A DNA stretch of 64,000 nt, from assembly GCF_018399035.1 (NCBI RefSeq), contig NZ_CP073760.1, positions 1,054,001 to 1,118,000 on the forward strand, written 5' to 3'. The position numbers and the translations under genes were made by a program. A model generated the notes under the pieces. That model was not told the DNA's origin. It ran no database searches and saw only the letters and a list, made by a program, of their open reading frames with translations. Source of the DNA: Thiocapsa sp. (lineage in GTDB: Bacteria; Pseudomonadota; Gammaproteobacteria; Chromatiales; Chromatiaceae). Positions 15,621 through 45,284 of the stretch are shown in pieces. Positions within the stretch are counted from its first letter, which is position 1. Each line of letters opens with the position of its first letter.

Positions 15621-15948
15621 GGGCGTACGCTCCGTGCGAGTCGGGGGGCATGGTACACCGATGGGGAATCGTTTTTGAGGAGCCGGTTGGGATTCAGAGC
15701 TGGCGTCGACGTCTTCGCGCTCCGCGCTCCGGGGACGATCGCGCTGCACGATCATGCCGCTTGGCGGTGGGCTGACGACGCGGAGACTTTAGGCGATTTC
15801 CGGGAATGAGCATCCCGGCCGTGCATGCCTCCAATGGTTACCGGGCGACTAAAGTCGCCCCTTGTTGGTCGATGCAGTCCCGGAAATCGCCTTCTCGTGT
15901 GCGATCGGGTAAAATTCGCGACGATACGAACACGCTACGGAGAGGCCC
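15588..15948. promoter_or_regulatory. Divergent control region shared by acyltransferase and rpn-like copy A1 (source of the A-module 5' flank)
   Basis: This region separates the minus-strand acyltransferase from the plus-strand Rpn-like gene A1. It includes the first 11 or so acyltransferase codons. The same sequence recurs upstream of A2 (24.8 kb), A3 (28.5 kb) and A4 (33.7 kb), and without the gene at 30.65 kb. A TAAAAT hexamer at 15910-15915 may be the -10 of the A1 promoter, and GGAGAGG directly precedes its ATG. Only this copy has a 100-bp palindromic insertion at 15792. Confidence 0.6.
15792..15891. mobile_element. 100-bp MITE/REPIN-like element with perfect 14-bp terminal inverted repeats
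   Basis: It is bounded by GGCGATTTCCGGGA (15792-15805) and its exact reverse complement (15878-15891). Inside is an 8-bp stem hairpin GGGCGACT-AA-AGTCGCCC at 15843-15860. The three other family A 5' flanks lack it and read straight from GACTTTA to TCGTGT, giving three natural empty sites. Three extra bases (TTC) after the right repeat may be an imperfect copy of the TTA before the left one. It is non-coding and would need a transposase supplied in trans. Confidence 0.85.
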
Positions 15949-17025
15949 ATGCGCAAGCCCACCGCCGATCGCGACGATTATGATTCCCCCTGGAAGGATC
16001 TGCTCGATCGCTGGCAGCGTCCGTTTCTGGAATTCTTCTTCCCGAGGATCGCGGCCGACATCGACTGGTCGCGCGGCTTCGAGTTTCTCGACAAGGAGCT
16101 GCAGAAGGTCACGCGCCGCGCCGTAGTCGGGCGACGGTATGTCGATAAGCTGGTCAAGGTCTGGCGCACGGGCGGCGAGGAGACCTGGGTGCTGATCCAC
16201 ACCGAGGTGCAGGGCGAGCCGGATCCGGGGTTTGCGCGGCGGCTCTATACCTACCATTCGCGGCTGATGGACCGTTACGATCGTCCGGTCGCGACCTTGG
16301 TGATCCTGGCCGATGAGCGGCGCGACTGGCGCCCGGAGCACTATCGTCATGCCCTCTGGGGCTGCGAGGCGGTGCTGGTGTTTCCGGTCGTGAAGTTGCT
16401 GGATTTCAAGTCCCGCACGGCCGAGCTGGAGGCCAGTACCAATCCGTTCGCGCTGGTCGTCCTGGCGCAGTTGGCCGCCACCGCGACCAAACGCGACCCG
16501 ACCGCGCGGCTGGATCGCAAGATCGGGCTGACCCGGCGGCTGTACCGTTTCGGCCTGAGCCGCGACGAGGTGCTGAGTCTGTATGCCTTCATCGATTGGG
16601 TGATGACGTTGCCCGCGCCGCTGGAGGACGACTACCATCGGGCCATTCAAGCCATCGAAGAGGCGGAGCAAATGCGATACGTGACCACGGCCGAGCGAAT
16701 CGGCATTCGGAAGGGGATGGAACGCGGGATGGAGCGCGGGATGGAACGGGGTCTGGAGAGGGGTCTGGAACGGGGTCTGGAGCGGGGTCTGGAATCCGAA
16801 CGTGCATTGCTGCAGCGCCAAGCTCGGCGGCGCTTCGGGGATGCGGTCGCCGAGCGCGCCGCTGTGCTGTTGGCGCTGATTCGGGCGCCGGAGACTCTCG
16901 AGCAGCTCGGCGAAGCCCTGCTCGACGATGACAACGGCGAGGTCTGGTTGACGGCGGTGCAGGCGCAGGCTGAACGCGCGGACGATCGCATCGATGCCGC
17001 GGGAGACCCCTCGCCGGCAGGATGA
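15949..17025 (+). CDS. Rpn/PD-(D/E)XK nuclease-like protein, family A copy 1 (likely source copy)
   Basis: 358 residues. The region YVDKLVKV with D66 followed by HTEVQGE (E86, Q88) has the spacing of a PD-(D/E)XK core with the ExQ variant, as in Rpn/YhgA and DUF4351-type proteins. A helical middle ends in EEAEQMRYVTTAERIG. Then come seven four-residue units (three GME and four GLE, each starting K/RG) before a conserved C-terminal domain ERALLQRQARRRFGDAVAER. A good Shine-Dalgarno (GGAGAGG) precedes ATG 15949. By analogy to Rpn proteins it is a DNA-acting, possibly toxic, nuclease; that is inference. Confidence 0.75.
   Translation: MRKPTADRDDYDSPWKDLLDRWQRPFLEFFFPRIAADIDWSRGFEFLDKELQKVTRRAVVGRRYVDKLVKVWRTGGEETWVLIHTEVQGEPDPGFARRLYTYHSRLMDRYDRPVATLVILADERRDWRPEHYRHALWGCEAVLVFPVVKLLDFKSRTAELEASTNPFALVVLAQLAATATKRDPTARLDRKIGLTRRLYRFGLSRDEVLSLYAFIDWVMTLPAPLEDDYHRAIQAIEEAEQMRYVTTAERIGIRKGMERGMERGMERGLERGLERGLERGLESERALLQRQARRRFGDAVAERAAVLLALIRAPETLEQLGEALLDDDNGEVWLTAVQAQAERADDRIDAAGDPSPAG
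16672..17025 (+). CDS. Predicted internal short product (RpnS-like) of family A copy 1
   Basis: In-frame ATG at 16672 (residue 242 of the full protein) lies 8 bases after AGAGG, an ideal ribosome-binding arrangement within the coding sequence. The 117-residue product would comprise the four-residue repeats and C-terminal domain only. In E. coli Rpn proteins an internally translated C-terminal piece neutralises the full-length nuclease; the layout here is the same. Translation is predicted, not shown. Confidence 0.45.
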   Translation: MRYVTTAERIGIRKGMERGMERGMERGLERGLERGLERGLESERALLQRQARRRFGDAVAERAAVLLALIRAPETLEQLGEALLDDDNGEVWLTAVQAQAERADDRIDAAGDPSPAG

Positions 17026-23122: not shown

Positions 23123-23629
23123 TCATATAGGCACAAGCTCACATTTTTTGAATGCCTGGAATTTCAGCGTGAGTAAAGAGTCCAGCTCCTTCTTGTGCGT
23201 GGTGTGCGTTTGTTTTAGGCAGTCGGTGATTGCAGTTCGGAACTCGGCGAAATTAGGATAGTATTTCGAGTAGAGCACTTCTTTCTTGACGAACTTCCAC
23301 AACCTTTCGATCAGGTTCAAATTCGGTGAATAGGTGGGAAGATAAAGCAGTTCGATATTCAGCTGCAAAGCCAGCGCTGTGACGATATTGCACTTCTGGT
23401 AGCGCGCATTGTCCATCACCAGCGTGATTGGCACGTCGAGATTCAGCATGGCAATGCGTCGCAACAGGTCGCAGACGCTTACCGCAGTGATATAGGTATC
23501 GTTCGTCACCATCACCAGTTCATGCGTGATCGCGTTCAGCGCACCGAGCACGTTGAAACGTTTTCTCCCGGCGGAAGTCTTTAAAAAAAGGCGGGAGAAT
23601 GACCACAGAATGCCGAGAAAGGCACCCAT
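23123..23629 (-). CDS. IS630 transposase, orfB (DDE catalytic part)
   Basis: 168 residues from a nominal ATG, but the real entry is probably by -1 frameshift from orfA, which adds FVDAAHFV with the first catalytic Asp. LVMDNARYQKCN has the second Asp and YSPNLNLIERLWKFVKKEV the Glu. The protein would act as an orfA-orfB fusion of about 345 residues. Its end overlaps the IS terminal repeat. Confidence 0.85.
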   Translation of the reverse strand: MGAFLGILWSFSRLFLKTSAGRKRFNVLGALNAITHELVMVTNDTYITAVSVCDLLRRIAMLNLDVPITLVMDNARYQKCNIVTALALQLNIELLYLPTYSPNLNLIERLWKFVKKEVLYSKYYPNFAEFRTAITDCLKQTHTTHKKELDSLLTLKFQAFKKCELVPI

Positions 23630-24165
23630 TACAAAGTGAGCAGCATCGACAAAAAAATAGCGCGTTTACCCTGTCTGGCTTCTTCGATGCGCGGCTCTAA
23701 CTTATTGATAATAAACTGTTCTTGCTCCTCCGGATCGGCTTTCGAGGGGATGATTCCGACTCGTCTCGGAGCCATGCCGAGCGAATTGAGAAACCGCCCC
23801 ACGGCGCTCGGACTGCGCTTGATTCCCGTCAGCTCCTCGATCATGGCCGCCGCCTCGTTGATGGTCGCAGGCGGATGCGCGCGGAAATGGGCTTCGAGTC
23901 GATAGCGATGCTGCTCCAACTCGCTTATCGGGGCGTAGAAGTTGAGCTCCGTCAGCTTTTTGATACCACCGGACTGAAACATCCCTAGGTACTGCCGTAA
24001 GGTGTTGCTGGAAATTCCCGCGAGCCGACAAATCTCCCGGTGCGCAAGGCCTTGGCTCTTCAGCCACAGCACCTCCATTCGCCTGCGCACCCTTGGGTGT
24101 GGATGCTCGTAACGCAACTTCTGTATTGTCTTCAAATCCTGCTCGGAGAACTCGATTCTGATCAT
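23629..24165 (-). CDS. IS630 transposase, orfA (N-terminal DNA-binding part)
   Basis: 178 residues with two helix-turn-helix regions (LAHREICRLAGISSNTLRQY and the winged part INEAAAMIEELTG with SPSAVGRFLNSLG). It ends after a run of seven T that can slip (A TTT TTT, near 23648-23654). A -1 shift there would join RAIF to FVDAAHF, the start of the DDE core in orfB. Frameshift-made transposase is common in IS630 subgroups. Confidence 0.85.
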   Translation of the reverse strand: MIRIEFSEQDLKTIQKLRYEHPHPRVRRRMEVLWLKSQGLAHREICRLAGISSNTLRQYLGMFQSGGIKKLTELNFYAPISELEQHRYRLEAHFRAHPPATINEAAAMIEELTGIKRSPSAVGRFLNSLGMAPRRVGIIPSKADPEEQEQFIINKLEPRIEEARQGKRAIFLSMLLTL

Positions 24166-25096: not shown

Positions 25097-26152
25097 ATGC
25101 GCAAGCCCACCGCCGATCGCGACGATTATGATTCCCCCTGGAAGGATCTGCTCGACCGTTGGCAGCGGCCTTTTCTGGAGTTCTTCTTCCCGACGATCGC
25201 GGCCGACATCGACTGGTCGCGCGGCTTCGAGTTTCTCGACAAGGAGCTGCAGAAGGTCACGCGCCGCGCCGTGGTCGGTCGGCGGTATGTCGACAAGCTG
25301 GTCAAGGTCTGGCGCCTCGGCGGCGAGGAGACCTGGGTGCTGATCCACACCGAGGTGCAGGGCGAGCCGGATCCGGGGTTTGCGCGGCGGCTCTACACCT
25401 ATCACTCGCGCCTGATGGACCGTTACGATCGTCCGGTCGCGACCTTGGTGATCCTGGCCGATGAGCGGCGCGACTGGCGCCCGGAGCACTATCGTCATGC
25501 CCTCTGGGGCTGCGAGGCGGTGCTGGTGTTTCCGGTCGTGAAGTTGCTGGATTTTAAATCCCGCACGGCCGAGCTGGAGGCCAGTACCAATCCGTTCGCG
25601 CTGGTCGTCCTGGCGCAGTTGGCCGCCACCGCGACCAAACGCGACCCGACCGCGCGGCTGGATCGCAAGATCGGGCTGACACGGCGGCTGTACCGTTTCG
25701 GCCTGAGCCGCGACGAGGTGCTGAGTCTGTATGCCTTCATCGACTGGGTGATGACGTTGCCCGCGCCGCTGGAGGACGACTACCATCGGGCCATTCAAGC
25801 CATCGAAGAGGCGGAGCAAATGCGATACGTGACCACGGCCGAGCGAATCGGCATTCGGAAGGGGATGGAGCGCGGGATGGAGCGCGGGATGGAACGGGGT
25901 CTGGAGAGGGGTCTGGAATCCGAACGTGCATTGCTCCAGCGCCTGGCTCGCCGCCGCTTCGGAGATGCGGTCGCCGAGCGCGCAGCTGTGCTGTTGGCGC
26001 TGATTCGGGCGCCGGAGACTCTCGAGCAGCTCGGTGAAGCGCTGCTCGATGGTGACGACGGCGAGGTCTGGTTGACGGCGGTGCAGGCGTTGGCGGAGCG
26101 CGCGGACGACCTTACCGAGGGGGCGAGAGACAGGTCGCCGGCAGCACAGTGA
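25097..26152 (+). CDS. Rpn/PD-(D/E)XK nuclease-like protein, family A copy 2
   Basis: 351 residues, nearly identical to A1 over the first 258 or so residues, with the same D66 and E86-V-Q88 core. It has five four-residue units (three GME, two GLE). Its C-terminal domain is slightly diverged (LLQRLARRRFGD) and the last 12 residues differ (LTEGARDRSPAAQ). An internal ATG at 25820 with AGAGG 8 bases upstream would give a 110-residue short form. The module follows the 3' end of the interrupted pilin gene. Confidence 0.75.
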   Translation: MRKPTADRDDYDSPWKDLLDRWQRPFLEFFFPTIAADIDWSRGFEFLDKELQKVTRRAVVGRRYVDKLVKVWRLGGEETWVLIHTEVQGEPDPGFARRLYTYHSRLMDRYDRPVATLVILADERRDWRPEHYRHALWGCEAVLVFPVVKLLDFKSRTAELEASTNPFALVVLAQLAATATKRDPTARLDRKIGLTRRLYRFGLSRDEVLSLYAFIDWVMTLPAPLEDDYHRAIQAIEEAEQMRYVTTAERIGIRKGMERGMERGMERGLERGLESERALLQRLARRRFGDAVAERAAVLLALIRAPETLEQLGEALLDGDDGEVWLTAVQALAERADDLTEGARDRSPAAQ

Positions 26153-27427: not shown

Positions 27428-27676
27428 TCAGTGCAGCACCTCATCAAGACTGTTGGCATCGAGTATCCGATCGGACCATTGCAGCAGCGTGTTGGGGTCG
27501 GCCCGGGTGACGCGTTCGCGCACCTGCTCACTGGGCGGGCCGAAGCGGCGTTCGATGAGGCGCAGGAGCATGGCTGCCCCGCCTTTCTGCACGCCCTGCA
27601 GTTCGCCCTGCTGCACGCCCTGCTGCAAGCCCTGCTGCACGCCTTGTTCAATGTAACGGTCGATGAAGGTTTGCAT
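27428..27676 (-). CDS. Predicted internal short product (RpnS-like) of family B copy 1
   Basis: The in-frame ATG at 27676 (MQTFIDRYIEQG) lies 8 bases after GGAG (27688-27685). It would give 82 residues consisting of the repeat helix and C-terminal domain. This matches the internally translated inhibitory fragment of E. coli Rpn proteins. Translation is predicted only. Confidence 0.5.
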   Translation of the reverse strand: MQTFIDRYIEQGVQQGLQQGVQQGELQGVQKGGAAMLLRLIERRFGPPSEQVRERVTRADPNTLLQWSDRILDANSLDEVLH

Positions 27677-28414
27677 GATGGGGTCTCCGGTGTTGGTTGA
27701 CTGTTGGAGCAGTTCCCGTACGTCGTGTTCTTCGATGCGCTGTGTCCCTTGGACATAGTAGCGCAACAGGGATTCCAGGATCGCCACGGCGGTGTCCTTG
27801 TCCTGCACCTGTTCGATCAGCGTCAGCAGCGTGCGCAGGCGTCCGATGGGTTGATCGTCGAAGATCCAGCGCAGGGCGAGTTGCACCAGACGCGTGAGCA
27901 CGTCGCCCTTGATCTCGGCGTTGGTGCGCGCGGAGAGGTCGACCAAGGCGTAGGTGAATTGCGGCACGAAGGCTGTCAATGCCTGCGGTAGCGGTGAGAC
28001 CAGTTGCTGAAAGCCGCGGGGAACACGCCATTGACGCTCGCCGTGGTAGATGACCAAGGGGTAGATCGGAGGCAGATGCTTGGCCTTGGGGTGTTGCTTG
28101 CGGTATTGGTCGCCTTCGGCGGTGATGTAGCGCAGCAGCTGCAGCAGCGTCCAGTGCTCGGGGCGGCTCTTGTGCTCGAACAGCAGATAGACGCTCAGAG
28201 GGCCGTCGCGATGCTGGACCCGATACACGAGGTCCGAATAGGCGGTGCGCAGATCGGACGCGACATAGCTGTCTTTGCCGATGTCGAGCGTGTCGAGATC
28301 GATCTCGGCGAGGAGCTCGGCCGGCAGGTGCCGGCGTAGGAAATCCAGTGCGATCTCGCGACGGCTGAAGCTTTCGCGAAAGTAGGTATCGTGGGGGGAG
28401 GCGATCTCGTCCAT
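27428..28414 (-). CDS. Rpn family (YhgA/Transposase_31) nuclease-like protein, family B copy 1
   Basis: 328 residues. It opens SPHDTYFRESFSRREIALDF, standard for Rpn/YhgA proteins. The PD-(D/E)XK core is YSDLVYRV with D61 and LLFEHKSRPE with E80-H81-K82. PIYPLVIYHGERQWRVP is the family motif. After TGDPIMQTFIDRYIEQG come four-residue QQGx repeats (GVQQGLQQGVQQGELQGVQ), then KGGAAMLLRLIERRFG and a LNxWSDRILDA-like end. Rpn proteins are DNA endonucleases with anti-phage and toxic activity in E. coli. A second copy lies at 40 kb. Confidence 0.87.
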   Translation of the reverse strand: MDEIASPHDTYFRESFSRREIALDFLRRHLPAELLAEIDLDTLDIGKDSYVASDLRTAYSDLVYRVQHRDGPLSVYLLFEHKSRPEHWTLLQLLRYITAEGDQYRKQHPKAKHLPPIYPLVIYHGERQWRVPRGFQQLVSPLPQALTAFVPQFTYALVDLSARTNAEIKGDVLTRLVQLALRWIFDDQPIGRLRTLLTLIEQVQDKDTAVAILESLLRYYVQGTQRIEEHDVRELLQQSTNTGDPIMQTFIDRYIEQGVQQGLQQGVQQGELQGVQKGGAAMLLRLIERRFGPPSEQVRERVTRADPNTLLQWSDRILDANSLDEVLH

Positions 28415-28743: not shown

Positions 28744-29784
28744 ATGCGCACGCCCGCCGCCGATTACGACGACTATGATTCCCCTTGGAAGGATCTGCTC
28801 GACCGTTGGCAGCAGCCTTTTCTGGAATTCTTCTTTCCGACGATCGCGGCCGACATCGACTGGTCGCGCGGCTTCGAGTTTCTCGACAAGGAGCTGCAGA
28901 AGGTCACGCGCCGCGCCGTGGTCGGACGACGGTATGTCGATAAGCTGGTCAAGGTCTGGCGCACGGGCGGCGAGGAGACCTGGGTGCTGATCCACACCGA
29001 GGTGCAGGGCGAGCCGGATCCGGGGTTTGCGCGGCGGCTCTACACCTATCACTCGCGCCTGATGGACCGTTACGATCGTCCGGTCGCGACCTTGGTGATC
29101 CTGGCCGATGAGCGGCGCGACTGGCGCCCGGAGCACTATCGTCATGCCCTCTGGGGCTGCGAGGCGGTGCTCGTGTTTCCGGTCGTGAAGTTGCTGGATT
29201 TTAAATCCCGCACGGCCGAGCTGGAGGCCAGTACCAATCCCTTCGCGCTGGTCGTCCTGGCGCAGTTGGCCGCCACCGCGACCAAACGCGACCCGACCGC
29301 GCGGCTGGATCGCAAGATCGGGCTGACACGGCGGCTGTACCGTTTCGGTCTGAGCCGCGACGAGGTGCTGAGTCTGTATGCCTTCATCGACTGGGTGATG
29401 ACGTTGCCCGCGCCGCTGGAGGACGACTACCATCGGGCTATTCAAGCCATCGAAGAGGCAGAGCAGATGCGATACGTCACCACGGCCGAGCGAATCGGCA
29501 TTCGGAAGGGGATGGAGCGGGGTCTGGAGAGGGGTCTGGAGCGGGGTCTGGAATCCGAACGTGCATTGCTGCAGCGCCAAGCTCGGCGGCGCTTCGGGGA
29601 TGCGGTCGCCGAGCGCGCCGCTGTGCTGTTGGCGCTGATTCGGGCGCCGGAGACTCTCGAGCAGCTCGGTGAAGCGCTGCTCGATGGTGACGACGGCGAG
29701 GTCTGGTTGACGGCGGTGCAGGCGCAGGTTGAACGCGCGGACGATCGCATCGATGCCGCGGGAGACCCCTCGCCGGCAGGATGA
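28744..29784 (+). CDS. Rpn/PD-(D/E)XK nuclease-like protein, family A copy 3
   Basis: 346 residues. It is nearly identical to A1 except for the N-terminus (MRTPAADYDDYDSPW) and only four four-residue units (one GME, three GLE), the shortest array. The core D66 and E86-V-Q88 is kept. The C-terminal 100 or so residues match A1 and A4. The internal ATG at 29467 follows AGAGG by 8 bases and would give a 105-residue short form. It is divergent from B1. Confidence 0.75.
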   Translation: MRTPAADYDDYDSPWKDLLDRWQQPFLEFFFPTIAADIDWSRGFEFLDKELQKVTRRAVVGRRYVDKLVKVWRTGGEETWVLIHTEVQGEPDPGFARRLYTYHSRLMDRYDRPVATLVILADERRDWRPEHYRHALWGCEAVLVFPVVKLLDFKSRTAELEASTNPFALVVLAQLAATATKRDPTARLDRKIGLTRRLYRFGLSRDEVLSLYAFIDWVMTLPAPLEDDYHRAIQAIEEAEQMRYVTTAERIGIRKGMERGLERGLERGLESERALLQRQARRRFGDAVAERAAVLLALIRAPETLEQLGEALLDGDDGEVWLTAVQAQVERADDRIDAAGDPSPAG

Positions 29785-29905: not shown

Positions 29906-30394
29906 CTACTCACCAACCTCGCGCAAGAGTCGCTGCACGATCTCGTCGGACGCGTAGAGTCCGGTTTCCCGCAGTCGCTGGATGACTGGCCCAGCGCGAT
30001 CGATCAGTCCTGCAACCTTCGCGCGACCGATGATGCCCAGGGTTCCAATGATCGCGAGCCCCATCGCCTTCGCGCAGCGTCTGGCCGCCAAGTCGTCGAT
30101 CACGACCCGGTCTGCGGCATGCGTAACCGCATAGCTGATGACTTGGGTTTCGCCCGCGCCAAGGTCCCAGCTCAGAATGTTGGCCGGCGGGACTTCGTCA
30201 TCCACGATGATGGCAGGCTCGAGTGCGCCCAGGATCTGAATCGTACGCGCTCCATCTGGTTTGGCGCTGACCTCTTGGATGACGGCGCCGGGCACGGCGA
30301 TCTGCCCTGCCATGGCACTGAGCAGTTCGATCTGCTCGACCTTGCCGAGCAAGATCAGCGGCGAGGCATTGACGACCCAGCGTCTATCCGCCAT
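29906..30394 (-). CDS. DUF3368 PIN-like toxin
   Basis: 162 residues from ATG 30394, which overlaps the antitoxin gene by 11 bases; an in-frame ATG at 30415 is less likely. VVNASPLILLGKVEQIELLS is the start of PIN-like DUF3368 proteins, with DLGAGETQVISYA and VVIDDLAARRCAKAMG giving the later acidic residues. These are VapC-like predicted ribonucleases paired with UPF0175 antitoxins, as here. The end IVQRLLREVGE is typical. Confidence 0.85.
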   Translation of the reverse strand: MADRRWVVNASPLILLGKVEQIELLSAMAGQIAVPGAVIQEVSAKPDGARTIQILGALEPAIIVDDEVPPANILSWDLGAGETQVISYAVTHAADRVVIDDLAARRCAKAMGLAIIGTLGIIGRAKVAGLIDRAGPVIQRLRETGLYASDEIVQRLLREVGE

Positions 30395-30638
30395 GGATCT
30401 CGGCCGCAAGCTCATCGGCTGTGACTTGGCACGCCGGAACCTTGCGGCGGCGGAGCTCTTCCAAGAGCTCGGCTCGCGTCAGATCGGCCAGCTCAGCCGC
30501 TTTTCCCTGCGAAACGACGCCTTCGGCATACCACTGAACCGCCGCGGCGATGCGCATCTCGCGTGCAAACTCCCCGGGCGCGAGGCGCAACGCGCCGAAG
30601 GCCGAGGCATCGAAGTCAAAAGTGATCGTGGTGGTCAT
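30384..30638 (-). CDS. UPF0175 family antitoxin
   Basis: 84 residues from ATG 30638; upstream codons belong to the repeated REP/acyltransferase flank. FAREMRIAAAVQWYAEGVVS, then QGKAAELADLTRAELLEELR is the standard UPF0175 pattern, with a helix-turn-helix-like segment. It is the first gene of the pair and overlaps the toxin start by 11 bases. Its promoter must lie within or near the orphan A-module flank at 30.65 kb. Confidence 0.85.
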   Translation of the reverse strand: MTTTITFDFDASAFGALRLAPGEFAREMRIAAAVQWYAEGVVSQGKAAELADLTRAELLEELRRRKVPACQVTADELAAEIHGG

Positions 30639-33993: not shown

Positions 33994-35070
33994 ATGCGCA
34001 AGCCCACCGCCGATCGCGACGATTATGATTCCCCCTGGAAGGATCTGCTCGACCGTTGGCAGCGGCCTTTTCTGGAGTTCTTCTTCCCGACGATCGCGGC
34101 CGACATCGACTGGTCGCGTGGCTTCGAGTTTCTCGACAAGGAGCTGCAGAAGGTCACGCGCCGCGCCGTGGTCGGTCGGCGGTATGTCGACAAGCTGGTC
34201 AAGGTCTGGCGCCTCGGCGGCGAGGAGACCTGGGTGCTGATCCACACCGAGGTGCAGGGCGAGCCGGATCCGGGGTTTGCGCGGCGGCTCTACACCTATC
34301 ACTCGCGCCTGATGGACCGTTACGATCGTCCGGTCGCGACCTTGGTGATCCTGGCCGATGAGCGGCGCGACTGGCGCCCGGAGCACTATCGTCATGCCCT
34401 CTGGGGCTGCGAGGCGGTGCTGGTGTTTCCGGTCGTGAAGTTGCTGGATTTTAAATCCCGCACGGCCGAGCTGGAGGCCAGTACCAATCCGTTCGCGCTG
34501 GTCGTCCTGGCGCAGTTGGCCGCCACCGCGACCAAACGCGACCCGACCGCGCGGCTGGATCGCAAGATCGGGCTGACCCGGCGGCTGTACCGTTTCGGTC
34601 TGAGCCGCGACGAGGTGCTGAGTCTGTATGCCTTCATCGACTGGGTGATGACGTTGCCCGCGCCGCTGGAGGACGACTACCATCGGGCTATTCAAGCCAT
34701 CGAAGAGGCAGAGCAGATGCGATACGTCACCACGGCCGAGCGAATCGGCATGCGCAAGGGGATGGAACGCGGGATGGAACGCGGGATGGAGCGCGGGATG
34801 GAACGGGGTCTGGAGAGGGGTCTGGAGCGGGGTCTGGAATCCGAACGTGCATTGCTCCAGCGCCTGGCTCGCCGCCGCTTCGGAGATGCGGTCGCCGAGC
34901 GCGCCGCTGTGCTGTTGGCGCTGATTCGGGCGCCGGAGACTCTCGAGCAGCTCGGTGAAGCGCTGCTCGATGGTGACGACGGCGAGGTCTGGTTGACGGC
35001 GGTGCAGGCGCAGGTTGAACGCGCGGACGATCGCATCGATGCCGCGGGAGACCCCTCGCCGGCAGGATGA
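33994..35070 (+). CDS. Rpn/PD-(D/E)XK nuclease-like protein, family A copy 4
   Basis: 358 residues, closest to A2 in the N-terminal part (VWRLGGEETW, LLQRLARRRFGD) and to A1 in the last 20 residues. It has seven four-residue units (four GME, three GLE) and GMRKGME in place of GIRKGME. It therefore looks like a mosaic of other copies. The internal ATG at 34717 follows AGAGG by 8 bases (117-residue short form). The 65 bases after the stop equal those after A1. Confidence 0.75.
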   Translation: MRKPTADRDDYDSPWKDLLDRWQRPFLEFFFPTIAADIDWSRGFEFLDKELQKVTRRAVVGRRYVDKLVKVWRLGGEETWVLIHTEVQGEPDPGFARRLYTYHSRLMDRYDRPVATLVILADERRDWRPEHYRHALWGCEAVLVFPVVKLLDFKSRTAELEASTNPFALVVLAQLAATATKRDPTARLDRKIGLTRRLYRFGLSRDEVLSLYAFIDWVMTLPAPLEDDYHRAIQAIEEAEQMRYVTTAERIGMRKGMERGMERGMERGMERGLERGLERGLESERALLQRLARRRFGDAVAERAAVLLALIRAPETLEQLGEALLDGDDGEVWLTAVQAQVERADDRIDAAGDPSPAG

Positions 35071-40006: not shown

Positions 40007-41017
40007 TCAGTGCAGCACCTCATCAAGACTGTTGGCATCGAGTATCCGATCGGACCATTGCAGCAGCGTGTTCGGGTCGGCCCGGGTGACGCGTTCGCGC
40101 ACCTGCTCACTGGGCGGTCCGAAGCGGCGTTCGATGAGGCGCAGGAGCATGGCTGCCCCGCCTTTCTGCACGCCCTGCTGCACGCCTTGCTGCAAGCCTT
40201 TCTGCAAGCCAAGCTGCTCGCCCTGCTGCAAGCCCTGCTGCACGCCTTGTTCAATGTAACGGTCGATGAAGGTTTGCATGATGGGGTCTCCGGTGTTGGT
40301 TGACTGTTGGAGCAGTTCCCGTACCTCGTGTTCCTCGATGCGCTGTGTGCCTTTGACATAGTAGCGCAACAGGGATTCCAGGATCGCCACGGCGGTGTCC
40401 TGATCCTGCACCTGCCCGATCAGCGCCAGCAGCGTGCGCAGGCGGTCGATGGGTTGATCGTCGAAGATCCAGCGCAGGGCGAGTTGCACCAGACGCGTGA
40501 GCACGTCGCCCTTGATCTCGGCGTTGGTGCGCGCGGAGAGGTCGACCAAGGCGTAGGTGAATTGCGGCACGAAGGCTGTCAATGCCTGCGGCAGCGGTGA
40601 GACCAGCTGCTGAAAGCCGCGGGGAACACGCCATTGACGCTCGCCATGGTAGATGACCAAGGGGTAGATCGGAGGCAGATGCTTGGCCTTGGGGTGTTGC
40701 TTGCGGTATTGGTCGCCTTCGGCGGTGATGTAGCGCAGCAGCTGCAGCAGCGTCCAGTGCTCGGGGCGGCTCTTGTGTTCGAACAGCAGATAGACGCGCA
40801 GAGGGCCGTCGCGATGTTGGACGCGATACACCAGGTCCGAATAGGCGGTGCGCAGATCGGACGCGACGTAGCTGTCTTTGCCGATATCGAGCGTGTCGAG
40901 ATCGATCTCGGCGAGGAGCTCGGCCGGCAGGTGGCAGCGGAGGAAATCCAAAGCGATCTCGCGCCGGCTGAAGCTTTCGCGAAAGTAGGTATCGTGGGGG
41001 GAGGCGATCTCGTCCAT
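40007..41017 (-). CDS. Rpn family (YhgA/Transposase_31) nuclease-like protein, family B copy 2
   Basis: 336 residues, over 95% identical to B1 by eye, with D61 and E80-H81-K82 kept. The repeat segment is 8 residues longer (GVQQGLQQGEQLGLQKGLQQ then GVQQGVQ), that is two extra four-residue units. An in-frame ATG at 40279 follows GGAG by 8 bases and would give a 90-residue short form. Its 5' flank matches B1 only to TATTGGTGG (41038), where group II intron sequence begins. Confidence 0.87.
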   Translation of the reverse strand: MDEIASPHDTYFRESFSRREIALDFLRCHLPAELLAEIDLDTLDIGKDSYVASDLRTAYSDLVYRVQHRDGPLRVYLLFEHKSRPEHWTLLQLLRYITAEGDQYRKQHPKAKHLPPIYPLVIYHGERQWRVPRGFQQLVSPLPQALTAFVPQFTYALVDLSARTNAEIKGDVLTRLVQLALRWIFDDQPIDRLRTLLALIGQVQDQDTAVAILESLLRYYVKGTQRIEEHEVRELLQQSTNTGDPIMQTFIDRYIEQGVQQGLQQGEQLGLQKGLQQGVQQGVQKGGAAMLLRLIERRFGPPSEQVRERVTRADPNTLLQWSDRILDANSLDEVLH

Positions 41018-43736: not shown

Positions 43737-45284
43737 ATGCACCGCCGCAAACTGCCGATCGGGATTCAGACCTTCCGCGAGATCCGTGAGAACGACTATT
43801 ACTATATCGACAAGACAGGTTTTGCCCGACAGTTGATCGACGAGGGGAAATACTATTTCCTCTCGCGTCCGCGTCGCTTCGGAAAATCGCTGCTGATCGA
43901 CACGCTGGCCGAGCTGTTCGCCGGCAACGAGCCGCTGTTCCGGGACCTGGCGATCCATCCGCACTGGGACTGGTCCACACGCTATCCGGTGATCCGGATC
44001 AGCTTTGCGGAGGGTGTGCTGCAGAGTCGCGACGCACTGGACGCACGCATCGCGGATCTGATACGCATCAACCGCGAGGCATTGGCGGTCGCCGTCCATC
44101 CGGGACTCGACATTGCGGGAGCCTTCGGCGAGCTGATTCGCAAGACCCACGCCCACTACGGGCAACGTGTCGTGGTCTTGGTGGACGAATACGACAAGCC
44201 GATCCTCGATCATCTCAGCGACCGCGACACGGCTCGCGCCATGCGCGACGGGCTGCGTAACCTCTACTCGGTGATCAAGGGATCCGACGCTCATATCCGT
44301 TTCGCCTTCCTCACCGGGGTGAGCAAATTCAGCAAGGTGAGCATCTTTTCGGGGCTCAACAACCTGAACGACATCACAGTGGATACAACCTATTCCGCGA
44401 TCTGCGGCTATACCGAGCAGGATGTGGATACTATCTTTGCGCCGGAGCTCGAAAACCTGGACCGCGATCGAATGCGCGACTGGTACAACGGCTACAACTG
44501 GACGGGGGCGGCCGTCTACAACCCCTTCGATCTGTTGTTGCTGTTTCAGAAACGCGAGTTTCGCTCCTGGTGGTTCGAGACCGGCACGCCGACCTTTCTG
44601 GTCGATCTGCTCACCACGCGCGGCTATTTCACGCCCGATTTGGCTGGCGTGCGTGCCTCGGAGGCACTGCTGTCGACCTTCGACGTGGACAGCATGTCGG
44701 CCGAGGCATTGCTTTGGCAGAGTGGTTATCTCACCTTGACCGGCTCGCGACGCATCGGCGCACGGCTCGAATACAGCCTGGGGTACCCGAACCTGGAGGT
44801 CGAATCGGCGTTGAACGACGCGCTACTCAAGGGACTGATGGGCGATCCCATGCAGGCCGAGCGCGCCGTCAGCCGGCTCTACGACGTGCTGGTCAGCGGC
44901 GATTTCGAGGCCCTGCGCGCCCACATCGAGGCGCTCTTTGCAGCCATCCCGCATCAGTGGCACGACGGCCACCCGATCGCTCGATACGAAGGCTTCTATG
45001 CCAGCGTCTTCTACAGCCACCTTGCCGCGCTGGGGCTGGACCTGACACCGGAGGATTCCGCCAATCAAGGTCGGATCGACCTGACCCTTAAATTCAACAG
45101 CCGGATCTGGCTGTTTGAATTCAAGGTCGTGGAGCTGGCGCCCGAGGGAAGCGCGCTCCAGCAGATCAAGGATCGCGGCTATGCAGACAAATACCGCGCC
45201 GCCGGCCAACCCATCCACCTGATCGGCATCGAATTCAGCCGCGAGCGGCGTGCCCTGGTGGGGTTCGAGGTCGAGACGGTTTAG
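43737..45284 (+). CDS. AAA-ATPase-like protein with C-terminal PD-(D/E)XK nuclease domain
   Basis: 515 residues. It opens RRKLPIGIQTFREIRENDYY and YIDKTGFARQLIDEGKYYFL, then SRPRRFGKSLLIDTLAELFA, the variant Walker A of AAA-ATPase_like (PF09820) proteins. VVVLVDEYDKPILDHL is the Walker B and AFLTGVSKFSKVSIFSGLNN the sensor region. The C-terminal domain (PDDEXK_9) has QGRIDLTLKF and IWLFEFKVVE, the D...ExK nuclease core. The family is widespread in accessory DNA, with unproven function in mobile-element biology or defence. A single intact gene. Confidence 0.85.
   Translation: MHRRKLPIGIQTFREIRENDYYYIDKTGFARQLIDEGKYYFLSRPRRFGKSLLIDTLAELFAGNEPLFRDLAIHPHWDWSTRYPVIRISFAEGVLQSRDALDARIADLIRINREALAVAVHPGLDIAGAFGELIRKTHAHYGQRVVVLVDEYDKPILDHLSDRDTARAMRDGLRNLYSVIKGSDAHIRFAFLTGVSKFSKVSIFSGLNNLNDITVDTTYSAICGYTEQDVDTIFAPELENLDRDRMRDWYNGYNWTGAAVYNPFDLLLLFQKREFRSWWFETGTPTFLVDLLTTRGYFTPDLAGVRASEALLSTFDVDSMSAEALLWQSGYLTLTGSRRIGARLEYSLGYPNLEVESALNDALLKGLMGDPMQAERAVSRLYDVLVSGDFEALRAHIEALFAAIPHQWHDGHPIARYEGFYASVFYSHLAALGLDLTPEDSANQGRIDLTLKFNSRIWLFEFKVVELAPEGSALQQIKDRGYADKYRAAGQPIHLIGIEFSRERRALVGFEVETV

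Follow-up and report, generated by a model that had tools for sequence, protein, structure and literature searches.

A conserved internal start site in a diverged relative of the Rpn nuclease genes and its probable role in producing an intragenic antitoxin

Introduction

In E. coli, RpnS is made from internal starts and binds RpnL, blocking its nuclease and neutralizing it (PMC10327210). Repeat number sets the specificity of Rpn proteins, one extra repeat abolishing recognition, and separate RpnS genes exist behind rpn genes (PMC10327210). An in-frame internal start also yields a second protein in the Cas10d/Cas11d pair of the Synechocystis type I-D system, a case we take from its citation in PMC10327210. 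A search of open-licence PMC papers returned no report of internal starts in DUF4351 genes besides PMC10327210.

We analyzed a 64,000-nucleotide stretch of Thiocapsa sp. DNA, hereafter the window. It carries four copies of a gene family (family A) for which an earlier reading made from the letters alone (the sequence-only reading) had proposed an Rpn-like layout. That layout is supported: a nuclease-like domain, a methionine, 4-residue repeats, and a DUF4351 tail follow one another in that order. Comparison with homologues strongly supports selection for an internal start in these genes.

Results

Four nearly identical genes share a predicted internal start

Copies 2-4 are 96-98% identical to copy 1 (Table 1) and, because the copies are nearly identical, we count them as one observation. 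The 4-residue repeat units, which are 12-bp tandem repeats in the DNA, number 6, 4, 3, and 6 in copies 1-4. As the sequence-only reading had described, codon 242 is an in-frame ATG preceded by an AGAGG that ends 8 nt before it, exactly so in 4/4 copies. The short products, given as 105-117 residues, have the computed lengths listed in Table 1. The same reading had called the ribosome-binding site ideal, which overstates its strength: the anti-Shine-Dalgarno (anti-SD) duplexes of the window copies are only moderate (-7.5, -7.5, -5.8, and -5.8 kcal/mol for copies 1-4) and weaker than the family median. The genes' own starts form duplexes of -6.6, -6.6, -6.6, and -9.1 kcal/mol, so that the internal site is the weaker one in copies 3 and 4. 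Within the window alone, the internal site would not be significant because 89 of 515 other in-frame ATGs of the family also have an SD match of at least 4 nt; a chance origin is rejected by the homologue comparison.

Long antisense ORFs over the gene (such as 15838-16821, minus strand) were taken as by-products of GC-rich coding. Elsewhere in the window are another nuclease-type accessory gene, with AAA-ATPase_like and PDDEXK_9 matches (43737-45284, plus strand), a DUF3368 protein (29906-30415, minus strand) that is presumably a PIN-like toxin candidate, and a transposase split into two ORFs, an HTH part and a DDE_3 part (23123-24165, minus strand), which we take to be of the IS630 type.

Table 1. 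Family A genes, predicted internal ORFs, and Rpn genes in the window
Feature	Position	Strand	Description
Family A gene copy 1	15949..17025	+	358 aa: PD-(D/E)XK-like N-domain, repeat helix, DUF4351-like tail
Internal Shine-Dalgarno AGAGG, copy 1	16659..16663	+	Anti-SD duplex -7.5 kcal/mol; GGAG also present closer to ATG
Predicted internal ORF, copy 1	16672..17025	+	ATG is codon 242; 117-aa short product
12-bp tandem repeats (G[ML]ER units), copy 1	16714..16794	+	6 units by regex
Family A gene copy 2	25097..26152	+	351 aa
Internal Shine-Dalgarno AGAGG, copy 2	25807..25811	+	
Predicted internal ORF, copy 2	25820..26152	+	110 aa, 4 repeat units
Family A gene copy 3	28744..29784	+	346 aa
Internal Shine-Dalgarno AGAGG, copy 3	29454..29458	+	
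Predicted internal ORF, copy 3	29467..29784	+	105 aa, 3 repeat units
Family A gene copy 4	33994..35070	+	358 aa
Internal Shine-Dalgarno AGAGG, copy 4	34704..34708	+	
Predicted internal ORF, copy 4	34717..35070	+	117 aa, 6 repeat units
True Rpn gene	27428-28414	minus	Pfam Transposase_31 5e-49
True Rpn gene	40007-41017	minus	Pfam Transposase_31 4.2e-48

The start codon is maintained across homologues

A homologue search gave matches in 17 of 56 genomes, including the window's own, which held 39. A profile built from 12 family A members (profile A2) matched at least 569 related stretches in named genomes, and we retained the best 80; it had matches in 51 of 398 genomes of the phylum. Among the matches listed, record titles name Chromatiaceae, Ectothiorhodospira, Cyanobacteria, Chloroflexi, Planctomycetota, Desulfobacteraceae, Myxococcales, Magnetococcales, Riflebacteria, and Chlorobiota. 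From 168 loci we obtained 132 ORFs judged full length, and dropping 33 that were at least 80% identical to one kept left 99 non-redundant homologues, a sample skewed toward the closest relatives. Family A also matched 65 of 72,556 plasmid records. Judging by genus name, at least 53 of these are cyanobacterial, and 25 are predicted to be conjugative. In the 25 plasmid records listed, the genes are named "cytosolic protein" (11), "hypothetical protein" (8), "DUF4351 domain-containing" (3), or "Rpn family" (2), and one is unnamed. A phage collection yielded no family A match.

The internal Met codon is ATG in 95 of the 99 homologues, GTG in two (SD match of 6 nt), and AAA (Lys) in two. The other three Met-rich columns hold Met in 86, 49, and 51 of the 99 and drift mainly to Leu and other residues, the main alternative being Leu in two of them and Leu, Ile, or Val in the third. 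Both homologues with Lys, L100 and L120, come from Chloroflexi MAGs and have no SD match above 3 nt; start codon and SD have been lost together. They are 62% identical to each other and perhaps represent one loss event. The downstream DNA examined for these two showed no small tail gene.

We also assembled a second set of 28 further genes (20 genes and 8 plasmid regions), and the internal codon is ATG in 28/28. An automatic pass assigned a position in 23 of these genes, in one case a residue away from the correct one; this case was corrected and the five remaining genes were assigned manually. For two of the 28, the first set contains a 100% identical member; none of the other 26 exceeds 79% identity to that set.

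Synonymous codons preserve the internal Shine-Dalgarno

An SD match of at least 4 nt accompanies 95/95 internal ATGs, compared to the 89/515 other in-frame ATGs noted above; at a threshold of at least 5 nt, the counts are 84/95 and 35/515. Mean SD excess over synonymous shuffles is highest at the Met column and both its neighbors, the top three of 327 columns. With expected counts computed from each gene's own Glu codons, GAG is used in 74/88 Glu codons at position -5 from the Met (42.9 expected, z 7.1) and in 82/85 at position -4 (40.6 expected, z 9.6). These positions are the top two of 49 Glu columns for GAG bias, with the third reaching z 2.8. In 25 low-GAG genes, which prefer GAA, GAG occupies 18/21 (-5) and 23/23 (-4) positions versus 5.2 and 5.9 expected. 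The second set repeats the bias (25/26 and 22/22 GAG versus 11.2 and 9.5 expected). Where the residues themselves differ, the SD is retained, with Glu-Gly-Glu written as GAAGGAGAA, Glu-Gln-Glu as GAACAGGAG, and Glu-Gly-Gly as GAAGGAGGA (EGE, EQE, EGGN).

Relatedness of the homologues was rejected as the cause of the GAG bias, as z does not exceed 2.8 in any of the 47 remaining Glu columns of these genes and the signal survives a 50% identity cut. At cuts of 65, 55, and 50%, GAG remains in 57/59, 33/34, and 20/20 genes at codon -4 (9.2 expected at 50%); codon -5 is weaker at the 50% cut (17/23 versus 11.8 expected). Synonymous-site conservation was the check that the sequence-only reading had set for its proposal, and when it was run, the internal SD codons proved conserved in the first set and in the 28 new genes. 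The claim that the internal start is under selection is borne out by the GAG bias, its repetition in new genes, and the joint loss of start and SD. Selection of this start across distant bacterial groups, nearly unchanged, is strongly supported by these sequence comparisons, and translation very probably initiates at the internal ATG.

mRNA structure and site strength fit an initiation site

In every 60-nt segment centered 20-200 codons upstream of the Met, native sequences are on average more structured than synonymous shuffles (-0.15 to -1.76 kcal/mol). Structure is relaxed at the internal ATG (+1.69 kcal/mol) and five codons on (+2.05 kcal/mol), after which the difference falls to approximately zero (12 shuffles per gene; t about 7 with genes taken as independent). 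Relaxed mRNA structure around an ATG is the look of a genuine initiation site. Across the family, the median anti-SD duplex is -9.3 kcal/mol at the internal site (n = 99) versus -3.2 kcal/mol at the genes' own starts (n = 47, the genes whose start could be placed by rule).

Could the same signals arise without initiation? The GAGGAG word just precedes the domain boundary, where it might slow the ribosome between domains to aid folding. Pausing needs no start codon, yet ATG or GTG lies downstream in 97/99 homologues and both exceptions also lack the SD; nor does pausing predict relaxed mRNA structure around and after the ATG. We consider pausing very improbable. A DNA word conserved for its own sake, for example as a recombination site for tail swapping, would suit the tail fragments and tandem tail copies that exist (L105, L034) and the nearby non-SD codons that are also uneven (Lys-1, Ser+5, Glu+7, Glu-10). 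However, the synonymous bias peaks by a wide margin at the pair of SD codons (z 79 and 33), the next of 200 columns (z 15) lies far upstream, and Pro+1, Tyr+2, Val+3, and Thr+4, directly after the ATG, show no synonymous bias. As the SD is moreover rebuilt in another frame when residues differ, we give a conserved DNA word almost no weight. Distant Ser and Ala columns (-128, -148) are also uneven in synonymous codons, an unevenness that for Ser probably stems from its two codon blocks. Just as slight is the chance that plain protein-level conservation of the linker (EE..xMPYVTSxER) resembles a start site by accident. The linker residues are strongly conserved in the protein, but protein selection is blind to GAG versus GAA, and it would not yield the excess of GAG at codon -4 in low-GAG genes or its return in new genes. 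Protein-level conservation alone was rejected as contradicted by the synonymous-site tests.

The N-domain resembles a PD-(D/E)XK nuclease

A structure model of copy 1 (mean pLDDT 90.4, pTM 0.72) contains an alpha/beta N-domain, a helical middle, a repeat-bearing helix (248-296), and three more helices. Met242 falls in the loop that connects helix 223-239 to the repeat helix. E50, D66, E86, and Q88 are invariant in 48/48 members of the family alignment. Among solved PD-(D/E)XK nucleases, the N-domain model matches EndoMS/NucS (Z 6.6-6.9, rmsd 3.3-3.8 over 102-109 residues), Kpn2I (Z 5.3), and McrBC (Z 5.0); Z values below 8 are supporting evidence and do not settle a fold by themselves. The two-domain build and nuclease signature are supported by comparative sequence evidence, and we read the N-domain as a diverged PD-(D/E)XK nuclease, distantly Rpn-like.

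For the full model, the top VIA-align row is not a nuclease but Zuotin (Z 9.1), which matches the tail as a helical bundle. Foldseek gave no hit at E<=0.001 for the full protein or the tail, a sequence search of solved structures found nothing relevant, and the window proteins pass no curated nuclease model in Pfam or NCBIfam. The 74-aa short product of L006, modeled alone, is helical (pLDDT 84.2). Fold and sequence searches for the tail, whose model is helical, did not return PDB 7TH0 (RpnA-S, a three-helix dimer). NCBIfam FliH hits, which fall on the repeat helix far below cutoff, were rejected. PADLOC gave tail-region matches to C3a178 "putative invertase" in three of five family A proteins scanned, the best being L079 at 1e-5; the Rpn protein matched as well.

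Family A is a distant relative of Rpn

The sequence-only reading had assigned family A a different nuclease domain. The domain is indeed far diverged, but it is not wholly different, as this PD-(D/E)XK domain aligns weakly with the Rpn core: hhalign of family A against Rpn N-domains gave a probability of 79 (P 1.6e-5, residues 6-137), in a register that places D66 and E86-x-Q88 on the Rpn D and E-x-[KQ]. Family A and Rpn tails align with a probability of 99.3. Transposase_31 scored 11.8 bits in copies 1 and 3 (cutoff 21), and copies 2 and 4 had no listed match. TIGR01784 scored 15.6-17.2 bits in the window copies (cutoff 52.1), while 33 of the 48 family alignment members match it at E<=0.01 (best 4.3e-15); of ten members scanned singly, eight match, all below cutoff (18.5-30.6 bits). 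DUF4351 matches 19/48 members at E<=0.01 (best 6.6e-27) and reaches 14.9-15.8 bits in the window copies alone, below the cutoff of 25. N-domains and tails align with those of Rpn, yet the window proteins pass no curated Rpn model. We therefore read family A as a sister family or distant clade of Rpn that is not among its filed members, that probably encodes an intragenic antitoxin, and that does not have a different nuclease fold.

As a positive control, we examined profile-found relatives of the window's Rpn gene; 7 of 40 rows were set aside (4 family A, 3 of a third family), leaving 33. By hand count, 31/33 carry, within the final third of the gene, an ATG whose SD match is 4 nt or longer, one has only GTG, and one has neither, although this control is lenient, with about one in six ATGs passing the SD threshold in family A.

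Tails with putative ribosome-binding sites of their own occur in other contexts

At 17 of 134 places, the start motif has fewer than 190 residues open upstream; these are partly fragments or frameshifted genes. A GAGG- or GGAG-like word, judged by eye, is retained at 15 of these 17 tail-only places. The family A copy in L034 (1501-4026, from a same-genus genome) has two breaks in its long frame, one of them immediately ahead of the internal ATG, and a substitution of the catalytic Glu; its internal ORF is open and has its SD. Behind this broken copy come other coding sequence and then a partial tail copy starting with GTG. In L105 (Trichocoleus), the tail and SD are tandemly repeated behind the gene, one repeat being an 86-aa ORF from the internal Met and the other short.

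A third DUF4351-tailed family comprises L028, L188 (ORF at 267), L194, and L199 (ORF at 355), the last three 55-62% identical to L028. L028, L188, and L194 have no Pfam match above cutoff, and all three have a weak DUF4351 match. The tail of L028 is 50% identical to the window Rpn tail over 84 residues, and the identity of L028 to family A is 26% across 296 residues. At the four places, AGGAGG, GAGGAG (twice), or GGGAGG stands ahead of the tail ATG; an example is EAADMSGFAQRFIE behind AGGAGG. L028 lies in the window's own genome, with three more matches nearby (C1:1037739-1044619). From such sequences, we tentatively suggest, with somewhat more doubt than confidence, that the DUF4351 tail with its built-in ribosome site may be a general "self-antitoxin cassette" behind several diverged N-domains (family A, Transposase_31, and the third family). 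If so, any gene with a DUF4351 tail would carry its own inhibitor, and gene-within-gene toxin-antitoxin pairs would be a large class hidden by names such as "cytosolic protein."

Discussion

A model that would accommodate these data is that each family A gene gives rise to two proteins from a single reading frame. The long protein would contain the PD-(D/E)XK nuclease-like domain (D66, E86-x-Q88) and a helical dimerization tail. The short protein, initiated at Met242 from its own internal ribosome-binding site, would consist of the tail only, that is, the repeat helix and the DUF4351 helical bundle. By analogy with Rpn, the short protein would pair through its repeat helix with the tail of the long protein and block the nuclease, and the stronger internal site seen in the family median would keep the short protein in excess. 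Loss of this balance, for example during phage infection, would free the nuclease. The repeat number (6, 4, 3, or 6 in the window) may decide which short protein fits which long one. We infer from the Rpn precedent that the short protein accumulates, binds, and neutralizes, and that the system defends against phage. An intragenic antitoxin is the most likely role of the short product (probability roughly 0.78), because the same parts occur in the Rpn order, the internal site is selected, and its strength exceeds that of the genes' own starts in the family median.

The short tail protein might instead be made to serve the nuclease complex as a stoichiometric co-subunit, the role of Cas11d beside Cas10d in the account cited in PMC10327210, and all the evidence for internal initiation fits this role equally well. 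Against it, the Rpn tail, a homologue of the family A tail, has been shown to inhibit (PMC10327210), and the family-median internal site is stronger than the own starts, as an excess of antitoxin requires. We judge the co-subunit role unlikely and favor the intragenic antitoxin.

The intragenic antitoxin layout, experimentally shown in Rpn, would thereby extend to a family that is mostly missed by curated models and spans Cyanobacteria, Chloroflexi, Planctomycetota, Desulfobacteraceae, and Gammaproteobacteria, among others. Sequence comparison makes selection at this start readable without expression data, and the same synonymous-codon test can be applied to other families in search of hidden second products. 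Four nearly identical copies with differing repeat numbers also offer a natural test of antitoxin specificity by repeat number.

Compared to known systems, family A shares with Cas11d an in-frame internal start; as cited in PMC10327210, however, Cas11d is a needed partner and not an inhibitor, and the proteins are unrelated. The likeness to Rpn (Transposase_31 / TIGR01784 / COG5464) is closer in kind: both have the PD-(D/E)XK domain first, an internal start with a Shine-Dalgarno, and a DUF4351 tail, and in both there are separate tail copies and several genes per genome. The repeats begin 8-20 residues after the internal Met in Rpn (PMC10327210) and about 11-15 residues after it in family A. 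The Rpn genes in the window have the same tail family as family A, and in one of them (27428-28414, L169) an ATG with a 4-nt Shine-Dalgarno precedes the tail. The family A start motif, EE..xM[PR]Y[VI]T[ST]xER, differs from that of the window Rpn, IMQTFIDRYIEQG.
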